64,000 nucleotides of DNA from Rhodoblastus sp. 17X3 (GTDB lineage Bacteria; Pseudomonadota; Alphaproteobacteria; Rhizobiales; Beijerinckiaceae), in the NCBI RefSeq assembly GCF_030056575.1, contig NZ_JASHHX010000001.1, positions 124,001 to 188,000 on the forward strand, written 5' to 3'. This document shows, piece after piece, positions 4,614-20,056 of this stretch. Position numbers and translations under genes: made by a program. Every line of letters starts with the position of its first letter. Position 1 is the stretch's first letter. Under the pieces are notes generated by a model. The model worked only from the letters and a program-made list of their open reading frames with translations. It had not been told where the DNA came from and made no database searches.

Positions 4614-4690
4614 GCGCCCGTAGCTCAGCTGGATAGAGCACTAGACTACGAATCTAGGGGTCAGAGGTTCGAATCCTTTCGGGCGCGCCA
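4614..4690 (+). tRNA. tRNA-Arg (anticodon ACG), CCA encoded
   Basis: The 77 bases form a cloverleaf: acceptor GCGCCCG/CGGGCGC, D arm with AGCTCAGCTGGATAGAGC, anticodon stem CTAGA/TCTAG around loop CTACGAA (anticodon ACG), T arm with GGTTCGAATCC, and a genomic CCA at 4688-4690. It is the integration target of the element that follows: the 3' part is duplicated at 20002-20056. Confidence 0.97.
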
Positions 4691-4692
4691 TT
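4638..4692 (+). repeat. attL, 55-bp copy inside the intact tRNA-Arg
   Basis: These 55 bases, from the anticodon arm of the tRNA through CCA plus TT, are identical to 20002-20056. Identity stops on both sides (A versus G before, A versus T after). Because the intact tRNA is here, integration left the tRNA functional. Confidence 0.95.
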
Positions 4693-4712
4693 AAAATCAA
4701 AGAGTTACGAAG

Positions 4713-4743
4713 AAAAAGCCGGAGCGTATCGCCTCCGGTTTTT
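4713..4743 (+). terminator. Rho-independent terminator just inside attL
   Basis: An AAAAAGCCGGAG arm pairs with CTCCGGTTTTT around a short GCGTATCGC middle and ends in a T run. It lies 23 bases after the tRNA and inside the element, so the element supplies a terminator for the tRNA transcript. Confidence 0.8.
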
Positions 4744-4747
4744 CTTT

Positions 4748-4767
4748 GGGGTAACTCCTAGGGTAAC
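4748..4767. repeat. Paired GGGTAAC repeats beside attL (possible integrase arm sites)
   Basis: GGGTAAC occurs at 4748-4754 and again at 4761-4767, 13 bases apart. The same heptamer in either orientation recurs three times beside attR, as expected for arm-type binding sites of a lambda/P4-class integrase. The function is inferred. Confidence 0.5.
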
Positions 4768-4839
4768 GATTGGCGCTCAAATCCCGCCTGCCCCGTCGAC
4801 GACAGTAGCAGGCCTGCAGACTCAGGACATTGCCGGCGC

Positions 4840-5133
4840 TTACTCGGCCTGTTTGTCTCTAATGCGCGCCGTGACCTCTGCGAAGGATGGGCGCTGTCCT
4901 TGCGATGAGGCTTTCAGGGCTGATCTCAAGAATCGAACCGGGAAACACATCGCCTCGACGTTCGACGACCTGATCTCCGTGGGGCGACCTGCGCCAGTCG
5001 CAATGCCTCGCTCGACCTCCGCGAGCATGAGGCCCACCTCTTCCTCGTCGAGAACTTTCTTGTCCACGAGCGCCTGAAAAAGCGCGGCAAGCACGGCATA
5101 GACGCCTTCGAGCTGCAAATTCGCTGTGTTCAT
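4840..5133 (-). CDS. Hypothetical protein, 97 residues
   Basis: I do not recognise a family. The product is soluble, begins MNTANLQLEGVYAVLAAL and has an acidic/hydrophobic helical first half (LVDKKVLDEEEVGLMLAEV), followed by a more basic tail. There is no signal peptide or membrane span. It is the first cargo gene inside attL, on the minus strand, and stands alone. Codon use looks normal for the window, so I consider it probably real but unproven. Confidence 0.5.
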   Translation of the reverse strand: MNTANLQLEGVYAVLAALFQALVDKKVLDEEEVGLMLAEVERGIATGAGRPTEIRSSNVEAMCFPVRFLRSALKASSQGQRPSFAEVTARIRDKQAE

Positions 5134-5300
5134 GGGGGTGTTCCCGTCGTTTGGAAAACTTGGGCGAATTGTCCTATCGTCCCGAAGATAGCACCGAATC
5201 CTTACAGTCGTTCATCAGCGCCGCACCAGCGACCTCCTCGGCCGCGATGGTCGCTCCGAACGCCGCCTTCAGTTTGTCGCGGACGCCGGCCGATAGCGAA

Positions 5301-5375
5301 AAACCCCGCAACCGGTTTTCACCGTGCGGGGCCTGATCCTTGGCGGCTGTACATCCGAGCGCGCCTTGGAATTGA
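5301..5375. repeat. 75-bp dispersed hairpin repeat, copy 1
   Basis: This copy aligns without gaps to 37916-37990. It opens with a stem-loop, CCCCGCAACCGGT pairing imperfectly with ACCGTGCGGGG around a TTTC loop, and ends with GGCGGCTGTACATCCGAG and a CCTTGGAATTGA tail. A decayed third copy is at 6309-6351. It occupies most of the 280-base gap between 5134 and 5414. Confidence 0.85.
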
Positions 5376-5414
5376 AGTCAGCTTAACCGGCGCTTGTGTC
5401 ATTATGAAGGCTCG

Positions 5415-5657
5415 TCACTCCACATAGGCGCAATCGGCCCCGTTGATGATTCCAGTTTGCTCGGCGAGGCCATCCGCATCCCCAATCCCGCTCTCGTCTT
5501 CTTCGTCAAGATCATCTTCGCGATCAGGTTCCTCCTCGAAGTCGTCGTCGCCATCGATCTCGTCGAGGAGCAGGATCAGGCTCTCGATCGCGTCCTCGAT
5601 CAGCCGGCGCATCCCTGGCCGGAACTCGATGAAGGTGCGGGGCGTGGGGCTATTCAT
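5415..5657 (-). CDS. Small highly acidic hypothetical protein
   Basis: From the ATG at 5657, which has a GGAG element 6 bases upstream, the product has 80 residues. The N-terminal part (TFIEFRPGMRRLIEDAIESL) looks like an amphipathic helix. The second half is an Asp/Glu-rich stretch with several runs of acidic residues. No membrane span or catalytic motif is visible. The frame could start at 5678, but that start lacks a ribosome site. Function unknown. Confidence 0.55.
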   Translation of the reverse strand: MNSPTPRTFIEFRPGMRRLIEDAIESLILLLDEIDGDDDFEEEPDREDDLDEEDESGIGDADGLAEQTGIINGADCAYVE

Positions 5658-5820
5658 CGCTCGCTCCAGCCTTTTCATAAAGCTCGTAATAGGTTTTCAT
5701 CGCTGCGGTCGCCCAGCATCGTTCGCGGCGGAAAACGATCTTGACATCCCGCGAGGCGAGGCTCAGCCTTCGATGCTTATTTCCCAAGCACAGTAAAAAA
5801 AAGCAATCGTGGAGGGAATC

Positions 5821-6189
5821 ATGGTCTCCGAAACGCTGGACATCAACGCGCTGACGCGAGACGATAATCAGGATCCGGACTTTCCCGATGCGCCGAGCGC
5901 GTGGACGCGGCAGGCGGCAGAAGAAACCGCCAAAGAGGAAGGGCTGAAGCTTACCGACGCACATTGCGAATTGATACGGGCGCTGCAATACTATTATGCG
6001 CGCCATGACGAGCCCGTGATCAACATGCGCGAACTGCACGATGCGCTGGACGAGAAATTCCACTTCCTCGGCGGCCTCAAATATCTATACGAGATCCTCC
6101 CCGGCGGGCCGATTGCGCAAGGTTGCAGGCTGGCTGGGTTGAAGGCTCCGTTTATGGCGACCGACAACAGTTTCGGCAGCGTAGCCTGA
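5821..6189 (+). CDS. DsrC/TusE-family sulfur-carrier-like protein lacking the penultimate Cys
   Basis: DsrC/TusE proteins carry persulfide or trisulfide on C-terminal cysteines in tRNA thiolation or sulfur oxidation. The 122-residue product has the family core: DAPSAWTRQAAEETAKEEG, LTDAHCELIRALQYYY, and a C-terminal GPIAQGCRLAGLKAP arm. The arm keeps the upstream Cys (CysB position), but the residue 11 positions later, where the essential CysA should be, is Ala, and the tail ends in DNSFGSVA. It is therefore unlikely to act as a normal TusE or DsrC. The start at 5821 is chosen over a GTG at 5809 because GGAGG lies just upstream. It is element cargo, followed by a terminator at 6224. Confidence 0.85.
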   Translation: MVSETLDINALTRDDNQDPDFPDAPSAWTRQAAEETAKEEGLKLTDAHCELIRALQYYYARHDEPVINMRELHDALDEKFHFLGGLKYLYEILPGGPIAQGCRLAGLKAPFMATDNSFGSVA

Positions 6190-6223
6190 GCTGCTGACGC
6201 AAGACCTTGAACTGGCAAACGAT

Positions 6224-6251
6224 AAGCCCCCGGCAAAACCGGGGGCTTTTT
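6224..6251 (+). terminator. Rho-independent terminator after the DsrC-like gene
   Basis: AAGCCCCCGG and CCGGGGGCTT form a perfect 10-bp stem around CAAAA, followed by TTT, 35 bases after the DsrC-like stop codon. The rest of the 6190-6509 gap holds only a decayed repeat copy. Confidence 0.9.
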
Positions 6252-6308
6252 AATGAGCGCCGCGCGAGCGTTTTCAAGCCGGCCCACCGCGATCGATCGA
6301 AAACGCGC

Positions 6309-6351
6309 CGTGCGGGGCCTGCTCCTTGGCTGCTGTACAATCGAGCTCGCC
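6309..6351. repeat. Decayed third copy of the dispersed hairpin repeat
   Basis: The stretch beginning CGTGCGGGGCCTGCTCCTTG, followed by GCTGCTGTACAATCGAGCTC, matches the right part of the repeats at 5301 and 37916 with a few substitutions. The left hairpin arm is not recognisable. Confidence 0.7.
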
Positions 6352-6509: not shown

Positions 6510-6878
6510 ATGGTTGGCAAGCTCGAATGCAAACACATCGACAAGCCCGACGAGACACGCCTATTCAAGGATGGGAAGGGCAAAGTTGAAGTCGTCACAC
6601 TTGGCGATCATACCTTCGGCCGTGGTGTCTTTGAGCCCGGTTGGCGCTGGTCGCAACACGTCAAGCCGATTGCCGGAACTCCATCCTGCCAAGCTTCACA
6701 CACCGGCTATGTCCTTGAAGGTCATATGGTGGTGAAGATGGATGACGGCGCTCAGATCGAATACGGCCCCGGCGACGCCTTTTACATGCCGCCTGGCCAC
6801 GATGCGTGGATTGTTGGCGACCAACGCTGCGTATTGATCGACTTTACCGGCGTAGCGAAATACGCGAAGCCTGCCTGA
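6510..6878 (+). CDS. Cupin-domain protein
   Basis: This is a single small beta-barrel of 122 residues. The cupin motifs are GRGVFEPGWRWSQHV (motif 1 region) and YGPGDAFYMPPGHDAW (motif 2, PGDxFxxPxGHxxW). The protein is soluble and likely metal-binding through His residues. The first cupin motif is weakly supplied with ligands (one clear His after GWRW), so the metal site may be incomplete. Many such one-domain cupins are of unknown substrate, and no neighbour points to a pathway. It stands alone as element cargo, convergent with the 7002-8016 pair. Confidence 0.8.
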   Translation: MVGKLECKHIDKPDETRLFKDGKGKVEVVTLGDHTFGRGVFEPGWRWSQHVKPIAGTPSCQASHTGYVLEGHMVVKMDDGAQIEYGPGDAFYMPPGHDAWIVGDQRCVLIDFTGVAKYAKPA

Positions 6879-6942
6879 AGGGCGCAACGGTTAACGATGG
6901 GCATATCGCTCGAAACTCGAATGGTCGTTCCGCTTAACAAAA

Positions 6943-6971
6943 ACGCCCGCCAGTGCATCCGTGGCGGGCGT
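6943..6971. terminator. Convergent hairpin, likely bidirectional terminator
   Basis: ACGCCCGCCA and TGGCGGGCGT make a perfect 10-bp stem around GTGCATCCG. It lies between the convergent cupin gene and the gene ending at 7002. A related hairpin with the same loop is at 10067-10094. Confidence 0.65.
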
Positions 6972-7001
6972 CAGTTGGCATGAGCCGTCGGGTAGGAAAG
7001 C

Positions 7002-7322
7002 TCAGCTTGGACTCAAAGTGGGGGTGCTTTTTTCCTTCGACAAGGGCGCCACCGCTACGGCGTCATCATAGGCCTTGTGATATTGCGTGTGCGCCTCGCG
7101 GATTAGATCTTCAACGTGATTGATCGAAAACATCAGCACTTTCAAGAACTCGCTGCTGATCACGATTTTTCGGTCGCCGTCGCCCCCCACGTCTTCAGCG
7201 ACATGGCGAACCTGGTCTTCAGCAAACTGGGTCAAAAGAACGGACATATTGAGAGCATTGAAGATTGGCATTTCCAGGCGGCGGAAAGCGTCCGCAAGGT
7301 GCTCGTCATTCGGATAGGCCAT
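7002..7322 (-). CDS. Hypothetical protein, 106 residues
   Basis: I do not recognise a family. The product is mostly helical (MAYPNDEHLADAFRRLEM, then VLLTQFAEDQVRHVAEDV) with no membrane span, and ends in a polar Lys/Ser/Thr-rich tail. A strong GAGGAG ribosome site lies before the ATG. It begins 10 bases after the stop of the Tat-exported protein gene at 7333-8016, so the two are probably one transcript under control of the operator at 8051. Confidence 0.6.
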   Translation of the reverse strand: MAYPNDEHLADAFRRLEMPIFNALNMSVLLTQFAEDQVRHVAEDVGGDGDRKIVISSEFLKVLMFSINHVEDLIREAHTQYHKAYDDAVAVAPLSKEKSTPTLSPS

Positions 7323-7332: not shown

Positions 7333-8016
7333 TCAAACTGTCAAAGTGGGGCGGACGAACGACTGAAGCAGCGGCATCAGAAGATCCTCGTCGTGTATCT
7401 CATCCTTGAGTGGTGACGACATAACGTATTCAACCTTGATCCGCGCCTCCTCGATGTCGCGGCATTGGTAGGCCAGAAGGATGATGGTCAGTTCCCTTTC
7501 TGCGTCGTTCGTCTCTTGCCAACGCCGGTTGGCGGCGCTGAGCCCGAACGCTTCCTTGCGAGCTTCATCGGCGGCGAAATTCACATCGAGGGTGGCGATG
7601 CGTTCGACCTCCTTGGCGTCGATCGCTGCCAGCGCCTGTTCGGCTGCTGTCGGGTCAAGGCGGACGAGTCCCGACAGCTTCTTGCGCTGTTCTTCGAAAT
7701 CGTCGGCGATGCCCTTCTTACAAAAATCATAGCCGTAGGTGAGCTCGTAGCTGCGGCCTGGACCGGCCGGCGTCAGCACAGGATCTGGGTATGCTTCATC
7801 ATATCGATCCTGCGTCGCCTCCTGGAGATCGATGGCCTCGCAAAACGCCTCGCGCGCCGCCCGGTGTTTGGCGATCAGGCTGAGCAGATCGGAAGCTTCA
7901 GTGCCGTGCGCAGCGGCGGAGATCGCGCCGAACACGGTTGCAGCTGATCCGGCGGCAAGGAATAGGCGGCGAGAAGGCAAGCCGGTAGCGCTTGCCGAAA
8001 TGGTGTTTTTCGACAT
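7333..8016 (-). CDS. Tat-exported hypothetical protein
   Basis: From the ATG at 8016 (AGGGAG upstream) the product has 227 residues. It starts with a twin-arginine signal: LPSRRLFLAAGSAATVFGAI ends near an A-x-A type site (SAAAHG), predicting export in folded form to the periplasm. The mature part is helical and rich in Glu, Asp and Ala, with no recognisable catalytic motif. The longer open frame to 8058 would put 14 residues before the signal and overlaps the operator palindrome. It is divergent from the XRE regulator at 8090 and upstream of 7002-7322. Function unknown. Confidence 0.65.
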   Translation of the reverse strand: MSKNTISASATGLPSRRLFLAAGSAATVFGAISAAAHGTEASDLLSLIAKHRAAREAFCEAIDLQEATQDRYDEAYPDPVLTPAGPGRSYELTYGYDFCKKGIADDFEEQRKKLSGLVRLDPTAAEQALAAIDAKEVERIATLDVNFAADEARKEAFGLSAANRRWQETNDAERELTIILLAYQCRDIEEARIKVEYVMSSPLKDEIHDEDLLMPLLQSFVRPTLTV

Positions 8017-8050
8017 GGGTTGCTCCCTAAGAGCAGCTTGTGATACAAAA

Positions 8051-8072
8051 TGGATCATACATTAATGATCCA
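8051..8072. promoter_or_regulatory. Palindromic operator between divergent genes
   Basis: TGGATCAT and ATGATCCA are perfect 8-base inverted arms separated by ACATTA. The palindrome lies 18 bases upstream of the XRE gene and 35 bases upstream of the divergent Tat-protein gene. It is a natural autoregulatory operator for the 80-residue HTH protein; the binding itself is inferred. Confidence 0.6.
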
Positions 8073-8089: not shown

Positions 8090-8332
8090 ATGACGAAAAT
8101 TAATCAGGTAAGGGCGGCTCGCGGTCTTATTGGCTGGTCGCAAACACAGCTTGCGGAAGCTGCCGGCCTGTCCTTGCCGACCGTAAAACGCTTCGAGACG
8201 GACAATGGCGTGAAAGTTTCGGGCGACGCAGTTTCGAAGATGGTCGCCGCGCTAGAAGCCGCGGGCGTCGAGTTCATCGCGGAGAATGGCGGCGGCGCGG
8301 GGGTGAGGCTCAGAAAGTCCATGATCAACTAG
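8090..8332 (+). CDS. Small XRE-family helix-turn-helix regulator
   Basis: The 80-residue product is essentially one HTH domain: NQVRAARGLIGWSQTQLAEA, then AGLSLPTVKRFE as the recognition helix region, and a C-terminal VSKMVAALEAAGVEFIAENG typical of short phage-type Cro/CI-like regulators. It acts as a cytoplasmic DNA-binding protein. It is divergent from the Tat-protein operon, with a 22-base palindrome between them, so autoregulation plus control of 7002-8016 is likely. Confidence 0.85.
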   Translation: MTKINQVRAARGLIGWSQTQLAEAAGLSLPTVKRFETDNGVKVSGDAVSKMVAALEAAGVEFIAENGGGAGVRLRKSMIN

Positions 8333-9209: not shown

Positions 9210-9911
9210 TCAAACTTGCGTTCCGAAGACGAAGCCAATCCCGGCCGTGACCGCCATCGCCAACGCGCCCCAAAAGGTGACGCGGATCGTCGCCTGAAAA
9301 ACCTTGGCGCCGCCAGTCCTGGCGCCGACGTAGCCCAACAGGGCCAGAAACAATAGGGAGGCGATGGATACGGTTTCCACTACGTGCGAGGCCGGCGTCG
9401 CCAGCGCCAGGACCAGCGGCAGGGCGGCCCCGACCGCGAACGAGGCTGCGGAAGCCAATGCCGCCTGCACGGGCCGCGCCCGGGTCAAATCCGATATACC
9501 GAGTTCGTCGCGAGCGTGGGCCGCGAGCGAGTCGCTCGCCATCAGTTGCTCGGCGACCTGCAGGGCGAGCGTCTTGTCCAGTCCGCGCTTCATGTAAATT
9601 CCTGCCAGTTCCTTCAACTCTCCCTCAGGATTTTCGCTGAGTTCGCTGCGTTCGCGGGACAAATCCGCCGTTTCGGAATCGGATTGGGAACTGACCGAGA
9701 CATATTCGCCTGCGGCCATCGACATGGCGCCGGCGACGAGGCCGGCGACGGCCGCCGTGAGAATAGCCTGATGCGTTCCCTGGGCGCTGGCGACGCCGAT
9801 AATCAGGCTCGAGGTGGAGAGCAGGCCGTCATTAGCGCCGAGAACCGCCGCCCTGAGCCAACCGAGGCGCTCGACGGCGTGATTTTCGCGATGTCCCCAC
9901 GTTCGGACCAT
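9210..9911 (-). CDS. VIT1/CCC1-family membrane transporter
   Basis: VIT1/CCC1 proteins move Fe2+ or Mn2+ across membranes. The 233-residue product starts GHRENHAVERLGWLRAAVLG followed by ANDGLLSTSSLIIGVASA, the family signature for helix 1. It has helix 2 with AGAMSMAAGEYVSVSSQSD, a hydrophilic metal-binding middle rich in Glu, and three further hydrophobic helices to the C-terminus, giving five spans. The ATG at 9911 aligns with the usual N-terminus; the frame upstream to 10004 has no family similarity. It is cargo of the element, on the packaging-module strand but separated from it by 201 bases. Confidence 0.9.
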   Translation of the reverse strand: MVRTWGHRENHAVERLGWLRAAVLGANDGLLSTSSLIIGVASAQGTHQAILTAAVAGLVAGAMSMAAGEYVSVSSQSDSETADLSRERSELSENPEGELKELAGIYMKRGLDKTLALQVAEQLMASDSLAAHARDELGISDLTRARPVQAALASAASFAVGAALPLVLALATPASHVVETVSIASLLFLALLGYVGARTGGAKVFQATIRVTFWGALAMAVTAGIGFVFGTQV

Positions 9912-10066
9912 GATCTGCCGCCCCCTCAGCAAGTTGCCGAAGACCCTATCGGCGAGGCGCCATTGTCGAAAGATTCGGATTTTGCACAAGCCTGGATTTT
10001 GCAAATGGGCCCAACGAAATTGAGCTGATTACAAAACTGCCATGGCGAGAGTAACCCTCGAGACGC

Positions 10067-10094
10067 CGCACGCCAGTGCATCCGTGGTGGGTGT
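10067..10094. repeat. Second copy of the CGCCAGTGCATCCGTGG hairpin
   Basis: CGCACGCCA and TGGTGGGTG flank the same GTGCATCCG loop as the hairpin at 6943-6971, with some mismatches in the stem. It lies just after the 3' end of the gene finishing at 10113, where it could end the packaging transcript. Confidence 0.6.
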
Positions 10095-10112: not shown

Positions 10113-10385
10113 TCACGCCTGACCGGCCGCCGGCATCGTCAAAAGTTGCTCGCGCGCCATATCAATGAAAACCTTCGGCATAGCGAAGGCGACCGCGTCG
10201 GAAATTTCCGGGTTTAGCTCTTTAATAAGCCGTGAGACCTCGGATCCAATTCGGGCTAATTCGGCGTCAATTTCGGCCTGCGGTCGCCCCGCGAGATCCA
10301 GGCATGTTTCGTAAAGATATCGATCGGCGAACGGGGCAATCACCCCCCGAATGAGTTCGACAGCCTGCTTCAGTTCCGGCGTCAT
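10113..10385 (-). CDS. Hypothetical protein, last gene of packaging module
   Basis: The 90-residue soluble, helical product (TPELKQAVELIRGVIAPF, then LARIGSEVSRLIKELNPEIS) matches no family I know. Its start overlaps the stop of the gp10-like gene by four bases (ATGA), so it belongs to the same translation-coupled run. A small virion or assembly protein is possible from position only. Confidence 0.6.
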   Translation of the reverse strand: MTPELKQAVELIRGVIAPFADRYLYETCLDLAGRPQAEIDAELARIGSEVSRLIKELNPEISDAVAFAMPKVFIDMAREQLLTMPAAGQA

Positions 10386-12932: not shown

Positions 12933-13262
12933 TCAGCCCTCTTCCGCGACCCGGAAACCGTGAATGATCAGATCGGCAACGGCCTCGATCGGCGCGACGA
13001 TCACGCCGTCGTCGTCAGCCGCGAACGCCTGTCCCCGCCACGAGCAGCCCGCGCGGGGCGAACCCATCAGCCGGATCGATCCGAGCGACGGAGCCGGCGC
13101 CACCTCTTCTTCGATCAAGGTAAAACCGGCGCCTGCCGTCAAGGAAGCGACCGCCTGTTCCGGAACGGAGACGGTGCCGTCGTCGTGAACGCGATATCGC
13201 TCGGTGCCGTAATTGCACTCATCGCAGCCGGGCGGCGCGATCAATCGGACCATATCCGTCAT
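12933..13262 (-). CDS. Small phage-type protein with an internal duplication
   Basis: The 109-residue product contains two related halves. The first is around CNYGTERYRVHDDGTVSVP and AVASLTAGAGFTLIEEE, the second around CSWRGQAFAADDDGVIVAP and AVADLIIHGFRVAEE. Each unit has a Cys, a turn with DDG, a Val-x-x-Pro strand, an AVA-x-L helix and a GF strand before an acidic end. The start at 13262 follows the upstream stop by one base. I infer a small structural or adaptor protein; no family name is certain. Confidence 0.65.
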   Translation of the reverse strand: MTDMVRLIAPPGCDECNYGTERYRVHDDGTVSVPEQAVASLTAGAGFTLIEEEVAPAPSLGSIRLMGSPRAGCSWRGQAFAADDDGVIVAPIEAVADLIIHGFRVAEEG

Positions 13263-13263
13263 G

Positions 13264-13578
13264 TCACACCGCCGATCCGGTGAGGGGATCGCGCCAGACG
13301 AGGCCGTCAAAGACGATCCATTTGTTCAGCGTCGTGTCGATGAACTCGAAGCCGGGCGCGGCCGTGTAAGGCGGCGTCAGGGCGCCGGGCTTCGGCCGTG
13401 CGGATGTCGGACCCGACGGAGCGACATTCGCCCAGCCGTTGGCCATTAAAACTGCGGCGTCGAAGTCAGGGACATCGACATAACTGCCGGGCGCGGCGGA
13501 ATAGGTGCGGCCGTTCGCAACAACACTCTGTTGCTGGATGTTCGGCGGCGGGAGTAGGCGGGTCGTAAGCTGCATCAT
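13264..13578 (-). CDS. Small phage-type hypothetical protein, 104 residues
   Basis: The product has a Pro/Gln-rich start (MMQLTTRLLPPPNIQQQ), then a strand-rich unit, GRTYSAAPGSYVDVPDFDAA plus VLMANGWANV, which resembles the repeat unit of the next protein. It ends with a second segment with FIDTTLNKWIVFDGL. The ATG at 13578 overlaps the upstream stop as ATGA. Likely a virion-associated or assembly protein, from context only. Confidence 0.6.
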   Translation of the reverse strand: MMQLTTRLLPPPNIQQQSVVANGRTYSAAPGSYVDVPDFDAAVLMANGWANVAPSGPTSARPKPGALTPPYTAAPGFEFIDTTLNKWIVFDGLVWRDPLTGSAV

Positions 13579-14234
13579 TGTCTCCAATCGGATTCAGGAC
13601 GGCCGCGAACCGACGCAGACCGCGCATTCGCTTCACGCCAAACCTTGTCGAACTGCTCGACGTTGCCGAGCCGGCGATTCAGATCCTCGACCTTCGAAAG
13701 GAGATCGTCAGCCTGCGCCAACAGCGCCTCGGCTTTGCGGAAATCGGCGTCACGCGGATCAATTCGGCGATAGTCGACGGGGCCGTCAGCCTTCCACAGA
13801 TCAAGGACCGCCTCCGGATTGGCGGGGCGATCGACCAAGCTCAATTCCGACCAAGCAATCTTGGTGATGATCTTCGAGTTTTTCGGGTCGCGGCCCAAGA
13901 CCTTGCCACCGATGCTCAGGCCTTTCAGGACGCCCGTCTGAACCTTCTTGATCGCGACCGGATCGACCACAGTCGCCTCGATCAGCGTCCGGTTCTTGTC
14001 GTCGATCTCGACGTGATCGACTTTGCCCGCCGCGTCCAGGCCGTGCATCGAGCGGAGGGCGCCTGTCCCATGCGCCATGAAGTCGGGAATGGCTTTGCGA
14101 ATGGCCGAGGCGAGAACGATCTCGCCGGACCGGTCAACCTCTTCCGTCGAGGCGATGCCGGTGATGTGCAGCAGGCCGTCGTCGTCTTCCTCAACCTTGC
14201 GCAGCCGACCGTAGACGTGGAAGCGGGCGCTCAT
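13575..14234 (-). CDS. XkdF-like/prohead serine-protease-like protein
   Basis: The 219-residue product begins RFHVYGRLRKVEEDDDGLLH and contains ITGIASTEEVDRSGEIV, then VDHVEIDDKNRTLIEATVVD and GVLKGLSIGGKVLGRD, then WSELSLVDRPANPEA. These are the order and motifs of the phage XkdF/prohead-protease fold, with the L-S-I-G and S-L-V-D-x-P signatures. Such proteins mature heads, but here no capsid gene accompanies it. The ATG at 14234 overlaps the upstream stop; a start at 14288 has no support. Confidence 0.75.
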   Translation of the reverse strand: MSARFHVYGRLRKVEEDDDGLLHITGIASTEEVDRSGEIVLASAIRKAIPDFMAHGTGALRSMHGLDAAGKVDHVEIDDKNRTLIEATVVDPVAIKKVQTGVLKGLSIGGKVLGRDPKNSKIITKIAWSELSLVDRPANPEAVLDLWKADGPVDYRRIDPRDADFRKAEALLAQADDLLSKVEDLNRRLGNVEQFDKVWREANARSASVRGRPESDWRQ

Positions 14235-14950
14235 TGATCGAGGCCCTTCACAACACCGCCGGTCGTCTCGGCGATATGGGCGGACCATTCGAGCTGAGCG
14301 CGTCGAACATCGTCGGTTGACGGGCCGACCGGCTTCAGATCGCCGATTTTGGCGTCGTACTGCTCAAGCCAGCGAAGATGCTCAAGGCCGGAATTGGGAA
14401 GGCGCGAGTTGCGCTGATGACCCAGTAGGATCAGAGGCTCGCGGACGCCGAGGGCTTTGGCGATCAGTTTATTGTGATGCGCCGCGACTTCCTTCAATTC
14501 GTCGACGATCGGCGTGATCTCTTCGGCGAGGATGTCCAGGACGGCCAGTTCGATTTCCGCTTCGATGGCCTTGGCCTTGCGTTCGGCTTCGTTGAGTTGC
14601 TGGCGAAGCTGGCCAGCCGCCGTGCGCGCCGCCGCTGCCGTGGCGCGAGTCTCAGCCGAACGATTTTCGAGATCTTTGCGCTCCTCGATGCGCGGGCCGG
14701 GAGCGTCGCCCTTGCCGCTCGTCGCCCACGCCTGAACGTCTGCGGCCTCGCGGGCTTCGATGCCCGCCAGATCGGCGCTATAGGCGTGCTCAGCCTGTTC
14801 GGCCCCGCTCAGCCGCTCGATGGCCTGACGCAAGCCAGTCGCCTCGGAAAGATGCTCTTGCCGCTCTCCGAGCAGCTTGTTGACCATCTCGCGCCCCGGT
14901 GAGACGTTTTCGCCGTCGATGGGTTCGACGAGTTTCAATGTCTTGATCAA
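14231..14950 (-). CDS. Coiled-coil hypothetical protein, first gene of packaging module
   Basis: The 239-residue product is largely coiled coil: residues about 25-150 are rich in Glu, Ala, Arg and Gln with heptad spacing (for example LRQQLNEAERKAKAIEAEIE). The C-terminal third is more globular and includes LEHLRWLEQYDAKIGDLKP. It lies at the head of the coupled run before the protease-like gene, where a scaffolding protein would be expected, but I cannot show that role from sequence. Confidence 0.6.
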   Translation of the reverse strand: MIKTLKLVEPIDGENVSPGREMVNKLLGERQEHLSEATGLRQAIERLSGAEQAEHAYSADLAGIEAREAADVQAWATSGKGDAPGPRIEERKDLENRSAETRATAAAARTAAGQLRQQLNEAERKAKAIEAEIELAVLDILAEEITPIVDELKEVAAHHNKLIAKALGVREPLILLGHQRNSRLPNSGLEHLRWLEQYDAKIGDLKPVGPSTDDVRRAQLEWSAHIAETTGGVVKGLDQ

Positions 14951-15311
14951 ATTGGCCTCCTTCTGAGCGCGAAAAATCGTCGCGTTGATACCCTCAAGTT
15001 ACCCTATTTGAGATTCGTGCCCAATATGACAAATCAAGACATTGAAAAAACATCAGAAAATATTTTTGAGCACCTGTTGTTGTATCAGGTGCGCGCTGTT
15101 TTTACGGGCCGGCGACCAAGCGGGAAATGGCGCCCGGATCGACGGAGAGAGGAAAACTCGGCGCTGCTGTTTTCGCCCTTTTGGGCGGAAAATCAGGGAG
15201 GTTTTCTTATGGCCAAGGTCAAGGCAAAAAAAATCCCGTCGCACGAGTGGAGAAGGCAGGGCGTCTTTTCCCTCCCAATTCCTCGCATGGTCCGCTCACT
15301 ACTGCCCCACC

Positions 15312-15428
15312 TGTGAAGGTGCGGCGGGGCAAGGTGCGGCAAGTTCGGCGGATGTGGCGCCCCACCCAACCCCCTATAGGGGTGTGGGGTGGGGCGGGGC
15401 AGATTTTCCAGCCAATGTGAGGTGCGGC
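15312..15428. repeat. GC-rich repeat region with GGTGCGGC repeats and a large inverted repeat
   Basis: The gap 14951-15432 has no convincing gene. Its right end has GGTGCGGC at about 15318, 15333 and 15421, plus an inverted repeat at 15359-15395 centred on TATA, where GCCCCACCC...CCCC faces GGGG...GGGTGGGGC with one bulge; CCCCTATAGGGG at 15371-15382 is a perfect palindrome. The region directly follows the replication ATPase gene and could be the element's origin or a packaging site. Confidence 0.5.
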
Positions 15429-15432
15429 AAAA

Positions 15433-16620
15433 TCAGTCATCGGCGAATGTCCCGACTTCGACGTAATCGCGAAGCTCTCGCTTAGCGTCCCGCTTCTGGG
15501 CGACGACGAGCATTCCTGACTTTTTCCAGATTTTCAGGAGGCCGATGATTTTGGCTTTGTGCTGCTTGTTGCCGGTGTCGAGTTGCATCACCTGCGCCAC
15601 GGCCTTTCCGACCCAATCAGCCGCTTGCGAGTTATCCCGCCATTGGCCTGCGGCGACGGCGTCTTGAACGGCGCGGAGATCGGCGACGGTGACCTGGTCG
15701 AGTGGGTCAGGCCATTTCCATACGGTGACGACGCCGACGTGATCGCCGTTGCCAATCTCGACCGACGTGATTTTGTACCAATCGGATTTGTCCGGCGGCG
15801 GCGCCAGATTGCTTTTGCCGTTGTCGACGCGGAAATGGAGCCGGCGATGTTCGACGCCAGCTCTGGCGCCTTCGTCTTCGGTCATGACATTCAGCACGCG
15901 GGCTGATCTGGCGGCGGACAGGAGCGCCACAGCGCCGCGCCCGTCCTCGACGGTGACCTCGGCGCCATTGGTCTTGCGGACGTGGTGGACGAGTTCGACG
16001 GCGCATCCTGTGTCGTCGGCGATCTTCGCCCATGCCTTGGCGACGCGGTCGATTGCTCCGTTGTCGTTTTCCGTGACGCGGTGCGAACTGACGAAAGGGT
16101 CAATAATCACCACGTCGATCTTGTTGGCCATGATGGTCGCCTTGATGGCGTCGATCACCGGCGCGATGACCTGGGCGCCGTCTCTGGTCTGCTCGGCGAT
16201 GACCAGATCCATATCGCGGCCGGAATCGACAAACAGGCGTCCCTCAAAGTCTGAGGCCGCCAAACCGTGTTTGACGGCGGCGGCCATGATGCGGCGTTGA
16301 AGCTCGTCTTCCGGGTCTTCCCCGTTCCACATCCAAACTTTGAATCTACCCGAAGGGCTGATCCCGAGCAGCGGCTTCCCGCTGGTCATCGCGAGCATCT
16401 CAACAATTCCCAGCGAGGATTTGCCAACGCCTCCCGGCGCGACCGTGGTGCTGATGAATTTACGGGTGTGATGGCCTCCATAGATAAATTGACGCTTTGG
16501 GATCGTGTCGGGCTCAATCCAGGCGAAAGGCTTGGCACGGATCGCCTTGCCGGGCATCGGCGGCTGGAAGGCCTCGCCCGGCTGCTCGTAGAACGGATCG
16601 AATGGGATGGGTTGTCTCAT
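15433..16620 (-). CDS. RepA-like replicative ATPase (RecA fold)
   Basis: The 395-residue protein has Walker A GGVGKSS at residues 63-69, an ordered RecA-like core with VWMWNGEDPEDELQRRI and VDVVIIDPFVSSHRV (Walker B), and the sensor VELVHHVRKTNG. This matches the AAA_25/RepA group of phage and plasmid helicases that unwind DNA at an origin. It is the last gene of the coupled run 17777-15433 and lies next to the repeat region 15312-15428, consistent with origin replication of the excised element. Confidence 0.8.
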   Translation of the reverse strand: MRQPIPFDPFYEQPGEAFQPPMPGKAIRAKPFAWIEPDTIPKRQFIYGGHHTRKFISTTVAPGGVGKSSLGIVEMLAMTSGKPLLGISPSGRFKVWMWNGEDPEDELQRRIMAAAVKHGLAASDFEGRLFVDSGRDMDLVIAEQTRDGAQVIAPVIDAIKATIMANKIDVVIIDPFVSSHRVTENDNGAIDRVAKAWAKIADDTGCAVELVHHVRKTNGAEVTVEDGRGAVALLSAARSARVLNVMTEDEGARAGVEHRRLHFRVDNGKSNLAPPPDKSDWYKITSVEIGNGDHVGVVTVWKWPDPLDQVTVADLRAVQDAVAAGQWRDNSQAADWVGKAVAQVMQLDTGNKQHKAKIIGLLKIWKKSGMLVVAQKRDAKRELRDYVEVGTFADD

Positions 16621-16856
16621 TCGGCAGCCTCACACATCTCCACCGGCGCGGCCATGACGGCCCGCACGGTCTTGAACTCGCGAAGAGCCGCGCGGGCGTG
16701 ATCCGCGAAGCATTGCAGATCCCAAATGGCGCCGGCGTCGTCGGCGATCTCCAGATGGCCTTGCGCGAGTCGTGCGTAATGCATCGCCATGGCGAGGTTG
16801 CTGTGCGATTCTTCGCGGGCTTTTGTCGCCAATTCTTCGGAAGGGACGCTGGTCAA
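16617..16856 (-). CDS. Small hypothetical protein in replication module
   Basis: The 79-residue helical product (SEELATKAREESHSNLAMAM, then GAIWDLQCFADHARAALRE) starts at a TTG that overlaps the stop of the RuvC-like gene by four bases. Its own stop overlaps the ATPase start. No family is recognised. The coupling on both sides supports it as a real gene. Confidence 0.6.
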   Translation of the reverse strand: MTSVPSEELATKAREESHSNLAMAMHYARLAQGHLEIADDAGAIWDLQCFADHARAALREFKTVRAVMAAPVEMCEAAE

Positions 16857-17332
16857 TGGCCGCCCTCCCGCACAATCGTTTCAGCCGCGAAGCGGGCGAT
16901 CAGCGCCGCCTCGGCGCGGCCGTGGTCTTTTTTGCGGGCGAAAAGTTCGGCGCGAGCCGGCCAGAGCTGCAGCGCGCGAGCGCGGGATTCCTCCTTGTCC
17001 GCCGACAACCCAAAATGCCGTTTCCATTTGCCGGGGGTGACGAAATTGACCGGGATTTTCAGCGCGGCGACGACGCCGATCAATGTCCCGTAGGCCTGCC
17101 CGAACTTGAACGTGCTCGAAACGCCCTGACCCGGCATCGATCCGACCCGCTCAATGATGGCGATATCGGGCTTCATGATCTCGAACCGCCGGGCAAGGGT
17201 GGCGGCGTCGACCTGACCATCCGCAACAGGGATATCTTCCGCCGAAACCGTCGAGGGATGGTCCGTGAAAACGAAGGCGATGGCGCCGGTCGTCACGCCA
17301 GGGTCGAAACTGGCAATGCAAGTATTGGTCAT
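16853..17332 (-). CDS. RuvC-like Holliday junction endonuclease
   Basis: The 159-residue protein has the RNase H-fold catalytic residues of RuvC-type resolvases: Asp in CIASFDPGVTTGAI (residue 10), Glu in IAIIERVGSMPGQG, and the C-terminal DHGRAEAALIARFAAE with acidic ligands. GKWKRHFGLSADKEESRARA fits the conserved middle of the phage and mitochondrial-like branch. Its role would be resolution of recombination or replication intermediates before packaging. It is coupled with both neighbours. Confidence 0.85.
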   Translation of the reverse strand: MTNTCIASFDPGVTTGAIAFVFTDHPSTVSAEDIPVADGQVDAATLARRFEIMKPDIAIIERVGSMPGQGVSSTFKFGQAYGTLIGVVAALKIPVNFVTPGKWKRHFGLSADKEESRARALQLWPARAELFARKKDHGRAEAALIARFAAETIVREGGH

Positions 17333-17529
17333 GACCGCACCTCGCGCGGTCCGAGTCCGGCAAGGGCGGCGATTGTCGCGGCAATCTCCGGCGCCACGCC
17401 GTAGCGGCGACGAAGAAATTGCAAAACGAGATTTGGGGGGCTATTCTCCGGATCGATCGCCGCCAAGCTGATCGTATTCCGGACCCGGCCCGCCGCCAGC
17501 GTGGCTGGGTTCAATTTTTCTGTCATCAT
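17329..17529 (-). CDS. Small hypothetical protein, 66 residues
   Basis: The product begins MMTEKLNPATLAAGRVRNTI and ends with an Ala/Gly-rich helical segment containing APEIAATIAALAGLGP. It overlaps both neighbours by four bases. No family or motif is recognised. Confidence 0.5.
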   Translation of the reverse strand: MMTEKLNPATLAAGRVRNTISLAAIDPENSPPNLVLQFLRRRYGVAPEIAATIAALAGLGPREVRS

Positions 17530-17777
17530 TCCGCAGCCGCCACCATCGAGTTGCGGCCGGCGATGCGCCTGCCAAGGGTGCGGCGACCAAATCCAAACTC
17601 GCGCGCCACTTGTTCGGCGGGCACGAAAGTTTCGATCTGGTCGGGAACAATTTCGGGAACCGTGCCGCCGAGAGCGGCGGCCATCAGCCTGCGCTTGTAA
17701 AGTTCAAGTTCGGATCGTCGCCAGAACAGGCGACCGCGCATGCGGATAGGAAGCGGAAATTCAGGCTCGTTAGTCAT
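17526..17777 (-). CDS. Putative DNA-binding HTH protein, first gene of replication module
   Basis: The 83-residue product has a C-terminal helix-turn-helix: PAEQVAREFGFGRRTLGRRI, resembling AlpA/excisionase-type winged HTH proteins that control phage and satellite genes. Its N-terminal part (RMRGRLFWRRSELELYKRRL) is basic. As the first gene of the coupled replication run it could be an activator or excisionase; neither is proven. Confidence 0.55.
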   Translation of the reverse strand: MTNEPEFPLPIRMRGRLFWRRSELELYKRRLMAAALGGTVPEIVPDQIETFVPAEQVAREFGFGRRTLGRRIAGRNSMVAAAE

Positions 17778-17840
17778 GTCTTACCTCGGCTTGAAGGGGC
17801 CTGAGGTGAGATTGAGTTTTTTAGCGCCTTATTATCAGTC

Positions 17841-18518
17841 TCAATTCTCCAACAATATTTGAAGTAGCTGATTTTCTTGTATTTTTAATACGTCTTGGAT
17901 TATCCGCCTGAACGAGATTGCGAGGCCGACAAGTCGGCGAGTGCGGGCATCATCATCCAGAATGTCTCCAAAGCTAAGCCCGTTATCGTCCCCGCATTCC
18001 CACCTATAGGCGAGAGCAAGATGGAGCGAGGGGATGCTTGGTTTCCATTTCCGGAACTTGATATTTTCATCGTTGCGAAGCGCATCGCCGCTTTCCGGAC
18101 GTCGCCCCGGACCATTGTTCGTTCGGCGATCTGCAACGTCCTTATCGACTGCATTCAGCATCGCATTAGAGAAATGCTTGGGAACGTCCGCGGGGCGCGA
18201 GACACCGATGATGTCGAAAGCCGCGGCGTGAGCTTCCGGCCATGCCATTTTCTCAGCAATCAATCGCTCAGTTTGGATTATCTTCCATCCGGAACTGGCG
18301 GCCTTTTCCAGTTCATGAATGTCGCTCACGCTCAAAAGCACGTCGACAATTCGAGGGATGCGGCGGCTCGCAGCTTTCGCTCCATTCCGCATGGTCAGGT
18401 ATATGCCCGCCTCAAACTTTGCGCGACGACTGCGATCATTCGGAAAGGCGAGCGCTGACAGAAACAAAGCCCCTCGTTCCCACGGGCTCAGGTCCGGCGT
18501 TATGATCAACGGATCCAT
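17841..18518 (-). CDS. Hypothetical protein, 225 residues, coupled to integrase
   Basis: No family is recognised. The protein is soluble and helical (SPWERGALFLSALAFPNDRS, SGWKIIQTERLIAEKMAWPE, RLVGLAISFRRIIQDVLKI), with a charged, flexible middle. Its start lies 4 bases after the integrase stop, so it is probably cotranscribed with the integrase. Codon use is slightly less GC-rich at the 3' end, which is the AT-rich edge next to the replication module. Confidence 0.6.
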   Translation of the reverse strand: MDPLIITPDLSPWERGALFLSALAFPNDRSRRAKFEAGIYLTMRNGAKAASRRIPRIVDVLLSVSDIHELEKAASSGWKIIQTERLIAEKMAWPEAHAAAFDIIGVSRPADVPKHFSNAMLNAVDKDVADRRTNNGPGRRPESGDALRNDENIKFRKWKPSIPSLHLALAYRWECGDDNGLSFGDILDDDARTRRLVGLAISFRRIIQDVLKIQENQLLQILLEN

Positions 18519-18521
18519 GAA

Positions 18522-19832
18522 TTAGCCCCTCTCGCTCGCCAAATCGACGACATTGCTGGCAAGCTTGCCGCTCACGATTGCGTCGAGATTTCGCGCCCAT
18601 GCCTCAAGCGCCGCCTTCTTCTCGTCGGCGTAGCTGTATCGGTTATAGACAGCCGCGACGCCTTTGATCGTGCCGCTCTTATGGTTCAGCACCGCCTCGA
18701 CAACATGGGGCGCGATCCCAAGCCCAGCCATGCCGCTGGCGGCCGTCCGGCGGAGATCGTGAAGCGTCCAGCGCGCGGGCGCCTTAGCTTCATCCGCGTC
18801 TTCGCCGCGCTCAACCGCCTCGGCGCGGATGGCGTCGAGTATCACGGCGTCAAATTGCTCTTTCGCCCGGCTGAAACCGGAAACAGACGTCTTGCCGGTC
18901 GTCGTGAAAACGAAATCTGATTTCTTCCCCTCCTTCTCGCCGGCTGAGATCCGGGGCAATGCCTTCAGGATTTTCACGGCCGCATCGGACAACGGAATTT
19001 CATGCGCGAGGCCGTTCTTCGAACGCTCCTTCGCAATCGTCCATATCTTCTTATCGAGGTCGATTTCCGACCACCGGGCATCCGCAACCTCGTCGCGCCG
19101 AACGCCGGTCAATAGGAGCAGTTGCGCGATCGGGCCAAAAGGCCAGCCGATCGCCTCAAACGCTTCCCAGGCCGTCTTGATTTCTGCGTCCGATAAGACT
19201 CGGTCGCGGCTATTCTCGGCAGACGGCGCCCGCAATTTGTCGCAGGGCGAGGCGTCAATAATCCCGCGCTCGATCGCCCAATTGCAAAGCTTCCGGAAAC
19301 CGGCGAGGGTTCTATTCGCCGTAATCGGCGAACCACGATCGACGATCTTGTCGAGAAGGGCATGAACATCCGCGCGCGTGATCGATGACAGGCGCCGGCC
19401 TTTCCATGGCCCCGAAATTTCCTTCCGCAACAGTCGTCGCGTCTCGTTCAGATATTTGGGTTTCGAGTTTTTCGTCGAATACCGTTCGATGAATGTTTCG
19501 ACAACATGCTCGACGCTTTCGTATTCGCGCGCCGCCTCTTCCCGAGCGGCGATCTTCGCGGCCTGTTTCGCCTGAGAAGGGTCGTCACCGCGCGCGATGA
19601 CTTGTACGGCTTCGCTGGCTAGCCTCCGAGCCGCAGCAAGGTCGATCGCAGGGTAGGGGCCTATGGTCAGCTTTTTCGGCCTGCCCGCGAACCGATAGCG
19701 GAGCGCCCAGCTTCCGGCGCCGCTCGGTTGAAGCACGAAGAAAAGGCCGCGCGTGTGACCATCTGGAATTTCGCGCCGCGCCGCGCCAGGCTTGAGGCTG
19801 TCCAGCGCTTTTACGGTGAGGTCTTTTGCCAT
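18522..19832 (-). CDS. P4-type tyrosine recombinase (integrase)
   Basis: The 436-residue protein has the N-terminal DUF4102 arm-binding domain (LKPGAARREIPDGHTRGLFF, then PKKLTIGPYPAIDLAAARRL), a SAM-like core-binding domain, and a catalytic domain. In the last, Arg is in LLTGVRRDEVADARW (about 243), the HxxR box is LHDLRRTAASGMAG (about 357), and the nucleophilic Tyr is in VYNRYSYADEKK (about 398-400). It lies 169 bases from attR and has GGGTAAC repeats around it. This family typically targets tRNA 3' ends, matching the tRNA-Arg repeat. Confidence 0.97.
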   Translation of the reverse strand: MAKDLTVKALDSLKPGAARREIPDGHTRGLFFVLQPSGAGSWALRYRFAGRPKKLTIGPYPAIDLAAARRLASEAVQVIARGDDPSQAKQAAKIAAREEAAREYESVEHVVETFIERYSTKNSKPKYLNETRRLLRKEISGPWKGRRLSSITRADVHALLDKIVDRGSPITANRTLAGFRKLCNWAIERGIIDASPCDKLRAPSAENSRDRVLSDAEIKTAWEAFEAIGWPFGPIAQLLLLTGVRRDEVADARWSEIDLDKKIWTIAKERSKNGLAHEIPLSDAAVKILKALPRISAGEKEGKKSDFVFTTTGKTSVSGFSRAKEQFDAVILDAIRAEAVERGEDADEAKAPARWTLHDLRRTAASGMAGLGIAPHVVEAVLNHKSGTIKGVAAVYNRYSYADEKKAALEAWARNLDAIVSGKLASNVVDLASERG

Positions 19833-19839
19833 GTAATCC

Positions 19840-19902
19840 GTTACCCCCTATTCTACGGGTATCGCTGGGGTAACGAAAATGAGCCGTCTTGACCTGTTAC
19901 CC
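19840..19902. repeat. Three GGGTAAC/GTTACCC heptamers near attR
   Basis: GTTACCC at 19840-19846, GGGTAAC at 19868-19874 and GTTACCC at 19896-19902 are spaced 28 bases apart each, alternating in orientation, between the integrase start and attR. Two more copies sit beside attL. This is the expected layout of integrase arm sites and the integrase promoter; no other gene lies in 19833-20001. Confidence 0.55.
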
Positions 19903-20001
19903 AATGTCCTAGACGCTACCGGACAAATGAGAAAAACTCAAGAAAAATAAGCGATTAAAGGGGATGTGGCGTCCTGATCTGTCAGCCTATTTCAGCCTAT
20001 G

Positions 20002-20056
20002 GCACTAGACTACGAATCTAGGGGTCAGAGGTTCGAATCCTTTCGGGCGCGCCATT
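20002..20056 (+). repeat. attR, 55-bp tRNA-Arg fragment
   Basis: The bases are identical to 4638-4692, but the 5' half of the tRNA is absent, so this is not a gene. It marks the right end of the element. The 168 bases between here and the SpoU gene at 20225 show no gene. Confidence 0.95.

Follow-up and report, generated by a model that had tools for sequence, protein, structure and literature searches.

An integrated element in a tRNA-Arg gene

The window, a stretch of 64,000 bp from Rhodoblastus sp. 17X3, contains an element of 15,364 bp that is integrated in the bacterial chromosome and flanked by perfect 55-bp repeats of a tRNA-Arg gene (Table 1). Both the tRNA and the repeats had been reported in a first-pass annotation and are confirmed. 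The repeat is present at two sites of the window only, and a 25-base piece of it, with up to three mismatches allowed, detects just these att sites, with 0 matches expected by chance. A genus mate, G158, displays a flank of 703 bp that is 97% identical and a single 56-bp copy of the att site. The element is not matched in the 13 kb of G158 that follow the site up to the contig end, nor TerS in the genome of this element-free relative. As had been described, the genes form translation-coupled runs, with most minus-strand genes overlapping by a few bases.

Table 1. Features of the element, by position in the window; percentages are identities to proteins of other loci (L numbers).
Feature	Position	Strand	Basis or match
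tRNA-Arg(acg)	4614-4690
attL, 55 bp, 3' part of tRNA-Arg(acg)	4638..4692		perfect direct repeat
small protein	4840..5133	-
acidic small protein	5415..5678	-
DsrC-like protein, cargo	5809..6189	+	Pfam DsrC 1e-16
cupin protein, cargo	6510..6878	+
o106	7002..7322	-
o241	7333..8058	-	47-54% to parts of one L095 ORF; no Pfam, PHROG or PADLOC match
Xre-type regulator	8090..8332	+	Pfam HTH_31, HTH_3; 51% in L064, 42% in L095
VIT1-family membrane protein, cargo	9210..10004	-	Pfam 1e-65
o90, after gp10	10113..10385	-	42% to L064
gp10/Neck1-like protein, 192 aa	10382..10960	-	phrog_222 'tail completion or Neck1' 4e-12
TerL, 459 aa	10918..12297	-	Terminase_6N 8e-32, Terminase_6C 9e-19
TerS-like protein, 213 aa	12290..12931	-	overlaps TerL
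o125	12933..13310	-	phrog_26071 4e-7
o107, small protein of phage head modules	13264..13587	-	58-59% to L045, 38% to L044
prohead-type serine protease, 237 aa	13575..14288	-	motif residues present
o239	14231..14950	-	predicted helical hairpin, pLDDT 83.6; scaffold-like by position only
non-coding gap, candidate replication origin	14951..15432		weak in this element
AAA_25 replication ATPase/helicase, 395 aa	15433..16620	-	Pfam E 5e-41
o79, conserved small protein	16617..16856	-	33% to L073, 43% to L045
RuvC-like protein, 159 aa	16853..17332	-	37-41% to L064, L074, L066; no Pfam match
o66, conserved small protein	17329..17529	-	66% to L074, 32% to L064
small conserved protein, 83 aa	17526..17777	-	weak HTH_8; 82% in L064, 78% in L074
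o225, 225 aa	17841..18518	-	0 matches in Pfam, PHROG, PADLOC
tyrosine integrase, 436 aa	18522..19832	-	Pfam Arm-DNA-bind_3, Phage_int_M, Phage_integrase
attR, 55 bp identical to attL	20002..20056		perfect direct repeat

The integrase is 53-55% identical to those of L064 and L074 and 51% to that of L086. It displays the Pfam domains of a tyrosine integrase, but its earlier assignment to the P4 type finds no support beyond these. The 83-aa protein may be excisionase-like; in a scan of viral contigs the contig of L064 is its sole match. The replication ATPase claimed earlier is borne out by its AAA_25 domain. Its product is 60% identical to that of L073 and in PHROG matches phrog_25693 (3e-46, function unknown) and phrog_906 (polymerase/primase, 4e-40). 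Two further claims are less well supported. The 159-aa protein called RuvC is conserved and contains what we take to be a RuvC-like motif, but it has no Pfam match. The origin-like repeats in the gap next to the ATPase gene are not significant, as their count is reached by 44 of 500 shuffles. Repeats at the same place, after the ATPase gene, are significant in all five relatives tested (0-3 of 500 shuffles each). Pfam scans of 20 element proteins yield no AlpA, Psu or primase; the ATPase resembles the primase-helicases of PHROG. The N-terminus of o241 presumably carries a Tat-like motif.

Packaging genes and the missing shell

The terminase, protease and gp10-like genes named in the first-pass annotation are substantiated by the matches in Table 1, apart from a reservation on TerS. 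TerL displays the motif residues of its class (GRGFGKT Walker A, D265 and D398), the two aspartates presumably having nuclease roles. A sequence search of PDB with TerL matches T4 gp17, which we take to agree with a headful-type motor. The closest TerL among isolate phage records is that of Desulfofustis phage LS06-2018-MD02, at 57% identity. The TerS assignment is upheld by position and by co-conservation with TerL, but domain support is weak (HTH, E 0.006).

The protease matches phrog_21715 (1e-46, function unknown) and the head maturation protease family phrog_80 (1e-12), with a Pfam S78 score slightly below the cut-off. Residues H82, S125 and E148 are unchanged across four aligned proteins, the element's own included. 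Scans of genome contigs and viral contigs with the protease only give no matches. The gp10-like protein is 45-55% identical to proteins of L064 (two copies) and L095. Its predicted structure has a pLDDT of 38.6 and was left out of the fold search. Sequence searches of PDB with gp10, the protease and the portal of L095 give no useful match.

Three further proteins accompany these genes. BLAST homologues of o239 are found in L045, L073 and L043, and in L044 the counterpart is supported by position only; a profile built with the L044 and L073 sequences matches there by construction and matches no phage locus at E <= 1. Homologues of o107 lie between TerL and portal in the phage contigs L099 and L164, and 3' of the portal in L168. 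A weak phage homologue of o125 (blastp 5e-6) follows the putative capsid gene in L005.

Besides the integrase, ATPase and TerL, the element has no start-to-stop open reading frame of 270 aa or more. Portal and capsid are therefore absent by size, in agreement with the earlier remark that neither was visible, and phmmer scans also rule out either as a large open reading frame in the window. PF05065 has no match in the window, and the gp10/Neck1-like protein is the sole connector-like protein recognised there. A hidden capsid or portal in o239, the one folded of four proteins proposed earlier for structure prediction, was considered and rejected: in Foldseek searches of PDB and BFVD the predicted hairpin matches nothing at E <= 0.001, and it has no significant match to scaffolds. 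The locus is thus a bounded, integrated element with an integrase, a replication gene and an incomplete virion gene set, which includes a TerS (by position and conservation), a TerL and a protease of its own.

Relatives and the TerL tree

A TerS-TerL core is common to the element and seven relatives. The six of these eight members with definable ends measure 15,364, 15,850, 15,088, 14,582, 15,493 and 15,071 bp (mean 15,241 bp, sd 433; range 14.6-15.9 kb). The L044 end repeat is short, at 15 bp. No ends are defined for L064 and L074; L074 stops at a contig edge and says nothing on gene absence after TerL. One member, L095, is apparently a closed circle and carries ParA. Restriction systems are carried by two relatives. 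Accessory assembly genes differ among members (protease, gp10, tape measure, baseplate hub, MuF), and L095 has two gp10 copies, one of them interrupted. This variation also fits piecemeal decay. Left out of the eight are L043, with protease and o239 homologues and no TerL seen; L065; L066, a 5-kb fragment with TerS and TerL; and L042, which resembles a prophage and has a portal, a protease and a putative capsid.

A TerL model matches all eight members; an adaptor model and a putative capsid model of the phrog_13692 type match none. The latter family has no assigned function in PHROGs; its designation as capsid follows from gene position and size. In whole-genome searches, PF05065, PF04860 and phrog_13692 have no match at the six chromosomal elements, and a capsid gene is recognised in 0/8 members in scans that covered part of the relatives' large open reading frames. 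A phmmer search (E 0.01) with 145 phage open reading frames downstream of TerL and the portal-region frames of L095 and of contigs C33 and C23 of the host genome detects a portal in L095 only. Lack of a portal is therefore not universal among members. As phage portal models failed to match the L095 portal, negative homology searches are not conclusive by themselves in the relatives.

In an order-wide TerS search 7 of 397 genomes match, strongly only the element's own genome and G248; the remaining five matches are weak, with E from 2e-9 to 5e-4. Searches of these five regions by tblastn with family queries give matches in two, each to TerS-like proteins only, and none of the five counts as a member. 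The carriers G040, G071 and G199 are outside the seven and may lie outside the 397 sampled.

In a tree of 99 TerLs (FastTree, midpoint-rooted), those of seven of the eight members and of fragment L066 form their own clade, with local support of 0.96. Of at least 590 phage sequences the best 80 were included, and the clade might not survive wider sampling. The TerL of L086 falls outside and adjoins that of phage L168; the phage TerLs of L005/L099/L164-type contigs also fall outside. There are related phages that have a portal and genes of the capsid region, but among the 99 sampled TerLs that of the element is not nested among complete phages, and a recent or simple deletion from such a phage, the outcome proposed earlier as a refutation, is rejected. 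TerS and TerL appear to be under purifying selection, as judged from sequence comparison of the element, L064, L074 and L095: dN/dS is 0.17-0.26 for TerS and 0.14-0.28 for TerL, with dS near saturation. For the protease against L043 it is 0.34.

A probable satellite with its own motor, and its candidate helpers

The locus is probably (at roughly 70%) a phage satellite in its integrated form, from a lineage whose hallmark is a self-encoded, complete terminase, which would be used on foreign proheads; helper dependence we infer. With an active helper, the element would excise from tRNA-Arg and replicate with its own ATPase. TerS and TerL would recognise element DNA and dock on the portal of helper proheads. 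The protease, o239, o107, o125 and gp10 may adjust prohead maturation and the head-tail joint, and perhaps also shell size, to allow a genome of 15 kb to be packaged and sealed. The helper would provide the capsid, portal, tail and lysis functions.

Known satellites share parts of this plan. Those in the available portions of PMC10690885, PMC11389934 and PMC4936722 either depend on the helper for the large terminase or come with a whole head. Capsid-forming PICIs (cfPICIs) are likewise integrated, with their own TerS, TerL and head maturation protease, but they have capsid, portal and connector genes and borrow nothing but tails (excerpts of PMC10690885 and PMC11389934), whereas here a capsid is recognised in none of eight members and a portal in L095 only. 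PICIs and SaPIs, as far as the excerpts of PMC10690885 describe them, share the integrase, a replication gene and a TerS-like protein of their own, and use foreign capsids, as we infer here; they bring cos sites, TerS, Rpp or scaffolding proteins, whereas the core shared by the element adds TerL. The size of SaPIs, about 15 kb, is similar (PMC4936722, in part). P4-like satellites and AH14b are small, integrated beside a prophage and without a full structural gene set, but in AH14b neither a terminase nor structural genes can be identified (PMC4936722, in part). In the 20 proteins of the element scanned with Pfam there is no Psu match. MulchRoom and MiniFlayer have terminase subunits of their own, with portal, capsid and scaffold and no primase (PMC10690885, in part), whereas the element has a replication ATPase and neither portal nor capsid. 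No satellite family that has both TerS and TerL and lacks a capsid appears among the open PMC titles and abstract openings listed. Phage contigs of the L005/L099/L164 type share a homologous TerL, o107 or o125, and the protease, and add a portal, the phrog_13692 putative capsid and MuF/adaptor genes.

If the interpretation holds, it represents an intermediate strategy, in which the packaging motor is brought and the shell is not, and motor and portal would be mixable across virus lineages in nature. It would also offer a testable system for the basis of TerL-portal compatibility and packaging specificity. Phage satellites are indicated in Rhodoblastus and Methylocella, where a conserved cluster resembling a gene transfer agent (GTA) would be an unusual candidate helper.

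The first-pass annotation had left the choice between a satellite and a prophage whose head genes were replaced. The satellite is better supported, because of the relatives of similar size, the satellite-only TerL clade (as sampled), the purifying selection, the restriction cargo of two relatives and the one circular relative; redirection of helper capsids stays conditional. A defective prophage, that is, the remnant of a complete phage in which cargo was acquired, the genes for portal, capsid, tail and lysis disappeared and the other head genes are leftovers, is improbable. The homology of the head genes to L099, L164 and L005, which also carry portal, MuF, putative capsid and adaptor genes, is in its favour, as are the differing subsets that members keep and the terminase of L086 from another branch. 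The core common to members, the narrow size range, the separate clade of 7/8 TerLs, the low dN/dS values and the apparent extrachromosomal circle argue against it.

Slightly less probable still is that the TerS/TerL, protease and gp10 homologues are weapons that poison the assembly of infecting phages, the island moving by other means. Restriction systems in relatives and the lack of a helper found would fit, and single structural homologues could serve as dominant decoys, but the TerL motif residues would be needless for a decoy, and integrase, ATPase and terminase stay together at similar total size.

Besides the siphovirus-like prophage C23, the genome contains a GTA-like cluster on C33, with GTA_TIM, DUF2460, portal, protease, putative capsid phrog_13692 and adaptor. 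To our knowledge, no gene transfer agent has been described with a satellite. The helper might be this vertically inherited particle, a generalised carrier that the element's sequence-specific TerS-TerL would make a private vehicle. Several features are consistent with this. The portal-to-tape-measure block, with an inner hisC on the opposite strand, is present in 8/8 other same-genus loci compared. The phrog_13692 family is found in all ten sampled genomes of the genus and in G199, and in four of five satellite-carrying genomes. Scored with models from the phage type closest to the satellite TerL, five C33 proteins (TerL, portal, putative capsid, adaptor and protease) reach 1e-73 to 1e-202, a better fit to the satellite's terminase type than that of C23 (portal 1e-10, adaptor 3e-13, protease 1e-11 only); and a portal of this phage type accompanies 11 of 13 phage TerLs in the sister group of the satellite clade. 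This is nevertheless the least probable alternative, since the portal model also matches 31 of 70 other phage loci and MuF proteins, the ubiquity of the cluster makes co-occurrence expected anyway, G248 carries L086 and no phrog_13692, in the tree the satellite TerL does not derive from that of the GTA-like cluster, and particle formation and capacity of the cluster are putative. The element itself, without a capsid gene and absent from G158, is no vertically inherited capsid-encoding cluster. In prophage C23 a 671-aa open reading frame was considered as a protease-capsid fusion and rejected, as the PF05065 match sits further on, in another reading frame.

Integration site and gene content

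The tRNA-Arg(acg) gene is the insertion site of the element, which is flanked by perfect 55-bp repeats lying 15,364 bp apart. A genus mate (G158), whose 703-bp flank is 97% identical, carries the att site only once, as a 56-bp copy. The 13 kb from this site to the contig end display no similarity to the element, and a genome-wide search of G158 gave no TerS match. The sequence to the right of attR was also not found within 13 kb past the tRNA-Arg of G158. Two regions further along the window, with operon-like and large open reading frames, are listed in the table of coordinates.

On the minus strand, the order from attR is integrase, o225 (such proteins are named by their length in amino acids), a small conserved protein, o66, a RuvC-like protein, o79 and an AAA_25 ATPase. 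After a 482-bp non-coding gap follow o239, a prohead-type protease, o107, o125, a TerS-like protein, TerL, a gp10/Neck1-like protein and o90. Beyond o90, towards attL, lies cargo: VIT1-family, DsrC-like and cupin genes, a regulator and small unknowns. DsrC-like and VIT1-family genes appear to be unusual cargo for satellites. The element also has dispersed short repeats; sequence near the 44-nt repeat was matched in addition at tRNA-Arg loci of two other genomes (G199 and G071).

Portal or capsid proteins usually have about 280 amino acids or more. The start-to-stop open reading frames of at least 230 amino acids in the element are the integrase, ATPase, TerL, VIT1, o241, protease, o239 and two antisense frames, over TerL and TerS, for which no PHROG match was found. 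Because all are thus accounted for, the element encodes neither a portal nor a capsid protein of the usual size, regardless of sequence. This absence stands on open reading frame size and is independent of the homology tests in relatives.

Coordinates of features in the window and in compared loci
Feature	Location	Remark
tRNA-Arg(acg)	window 4614-4690	insertion site
44-nt repeat	window 5322-5365 / 6308-6351	
DsrC-like gene	window 5809-6189	cargo
28-nt repeat	window 6944-6971 / 10067-10094	89%
VIT1-family gene	window 9210-10004	cargo
Large open reading frames	window 23000-38000	lower GC; presumably glycosyltransferase-like
Operon-like group	window 39760-44469	taken to resemble a soluble di-iron monooxygenase operon
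EcoRII, cytosine methylase, Vsr	L044:14608-17615	restriction cargo
MmeI-type enzyme	L073:1979-5524	restriction cargo
Protease match of L042	G130:C32:103633-104163	reported with two TGA stops
Open protease frame	L042:17412-18869	
Prophage (L076, L077)	G000:C23:98001-134000	window's own genome
GTA-like cluster (L041)	G000:C33:1-20000	window's own genome

A family of relatives with interchangeable assembly genes

A TerS profile detected relatives in 3 of the 11 genomes of the genus, the window's own genome counted. An order-wide search and collections of genomes and viral sequences supplied further relatives, giving a working set of eight. Identity to the window across members is 51-68% for TerL and 39-70% for TerS. 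Ends could be defined in six of the eight, with sizes of 15,364 (window), 15,850, 15,088, 14,582, 15,493 and 15,071 bp (L095 about 15.1 kb). A capsid of constant internal volume would be expected to impose such a narrow range on the DNA packaged in it.

Members of the working set, their ends and the assembly genes beside the terminase
Member	Source	Ends	Assembly genes
Window	Rhodoblastus sp. 17X3	55-bp repeat, tRNA-Arg	protease, o239, o107, o125, gp10
L064	metagenome contig		two gp10
L095	metagenome contig	127-bp terminal repeat, suggesting a circle	portal, glycine-rich fibre-like protein, gp10; second gp10 copy interrupted
L074	G199, shared with L073; cut by contig end		
L073	G199, shared with L074	45 bp, tRNA-Cys	o239
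L045	contig assigned to Rhodoblastus acidophilus MO	25+20 bp, one mismatch, tRNA-Lys	protease, o239, o107, 671-aa tape-measure-like protein
L044	contig assigned to Methylocella silvestris TVC	15 bp, weaker repeat, tRNA-Ala	protease-MuF fusion, o107, protein at o239's position
L086	G248, another family of the same order	55 bp, tRNA-Lys	baseplate-hub protein

The assembly genes differ from member to member. In phage contigs, the composite order of the module (L005, L099, L164) is TerL, o107, portal, MuF/protease, putative capsid, o125 and adaptor, and in phage L168 o107 follows the portal. Among other viral contigs, gp10 matches only L093 and L094 (31-32%), which also carry the portals most closely related to that of L095 and which, by gene order, resemble myoviruses. 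The prophage-like locus L042 encodes a gp10 with 38% identity as well as the closest protease of the family search (55%); the two TGA stops of that match probably lie before the start of the open frame. The insert in the second gp10 copy of L095 presumably represents a transposase fragment, which it resembles.

By BLAST, homologues of o239 are found in L045, L073 and a further locus, L043, with no match to phage loci at E <= 1. Its AlphaFold2 model is a long helical hairpin, for which a structural search gave no significant match. From its position beside the protease, one might guess at a scaffold or size-determining protein.

Models grown from phage loci matched TerL in all eight members, and the putative capsid of the phrog_13692 type and the adaptor in none. 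The portal model gave a signal only in L044, via its MuF part. The family phrog_13692 is without an annotated function, has no Pfam match and is labelled a putative capsid because it is located after the protease and before the connector. At the six chromosomal elements, whole-genome searches of the five carrier genomes gave no match to PF05065, PF04860 or phrog_13692. The portal of L095 is real (phrog_145, 5e-10, in a PHROG search covering part of the relatives' large open reading frames), and the phage-locus models missed it. In a further comparison, 145 phage open reading frames downstream of TerL and the portal-region frames of L095 and of contigs C33 and C23 were set against all six frames of the eight members. 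A portal was matched only in L095, by its own portal; protease/MuF proteins and two marginal short matches (E 0.001 and 0.006) were also obtained.

Restriction cargo is present in two members, L044 and L073. Repeated 8-mers after the ATPase gene are significant in L064, L073, L045, L095 and L074 (0-3 of 500 shuffles); the window's own count is reached by 44 of 500 shuffles and is not significant. L095 (IMGVR_UViG_3300045776_000213) encodes ParA, a primase-like frame, TerS, TerL, portal, fibre-like protein and gp10; its integrase search gave no match and no capsid was recognised. It appears to be a plasmid-like satellite forming an apparent 15.1-kb circle.

The terminase lineage and known satellites

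A midpoint-rooted FastTree phylogeny was built from 99 TerL sequences (83 phage loci, eight members, seven GTA-like loci and one fragment). A separate clade unites seven members with the metagenome fragment L066 (local support 0.96), and its sister group consists of 13 phage TerLs (0.87). This clade could yet be broken, because the phage sequences were limited to the top 80 out of at least 590 matches, with 8 earlier loci added. The TerL of L086 groups with that of phage L168, and its terminase is therefore of other origin.

Among the window, L064, L074 and L095, pairwise dN/dS of TerS lies at 0.17-0.26 and that of TerL at 0.14-0.28; it is 0.27 for gp10 (window versus L064) and 0.34 for the protease (window versus L043), all rough ratios because dS is often above 1. 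TerL retains the Walker A motif GRGFGKT and candidate nuclease aspartates, and the window protease retains the residues invariant among four aligned proteins.

In the sections of PMC10690885 and PMC11389934 that treat them, cfPICIs carry terminase, protease, portal, connectors and capsid; the window element differs from these in its negative capsid and portal results. The same sections describe PICIs and P4 as leaving the large terminase to the helper. The terminase of AH14b is not identifiable in the account consulted (PMC4936722), and MulchRoom and MiniFlayer are described as having their own portal and capsid too (PMC10690885). A satellite with a complete terminase but without a capsid was not found among the open-licence papers listed, a scope outside which most subscription papers lie.

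Candidate helpers

The most likely candidate helper is a phage that infects the host and has a head of the L005/L099 type. Resident prophages are not necessarily the helper, as stated in the part of a review consulted (PMC11389934).

A bold alternative is a GTA-like particle of the host (for gene transfer agents, see the background sections of PMC9662315). The C33 cluster has GTA_TIM, DUF2460, portal, protease, phrog_13692 and adaptor, with hisC inside on the opposite strand. Portal to tape measure and hisC recur in all eight other same-genus loci (L046-L053), and TerL and the GTA_TIM protein in seven each, two loci being short contigs; three loci of other genera have parts only, without hisC. 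The phrog_13692 family is found in 37 of 199 family genomes, including 10 of 10 of the genus, and also in G199, hence in all 11 genus genomes searched. It is present in four of the five carrier genomes; the fifth, G248 with L086, has no match to phrog_13692, PF05065 or PF04860. The cluster's putative capsid has no PF05065 match. The cluster may represent a type of GTA other than RcGTA.

The siphovirus-like C23 prophage has a portal, a PF03354-type terminase, a protease and a PF05065 capsid, the latter a gene separate from a 671-aa frame with a weak S78 protease match; its tail gene labels are our assumption. Its portal displays only distant likeness to the portal type nearest the satellite TerL, and the C33 head genes match that phage type far better than those of C23. 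Among the sister phage TerLs, 11 of 13 are accompanied by this portal type, as are 31 of the 70 other phage loci; the portal model used here matches MuF proteins as well.
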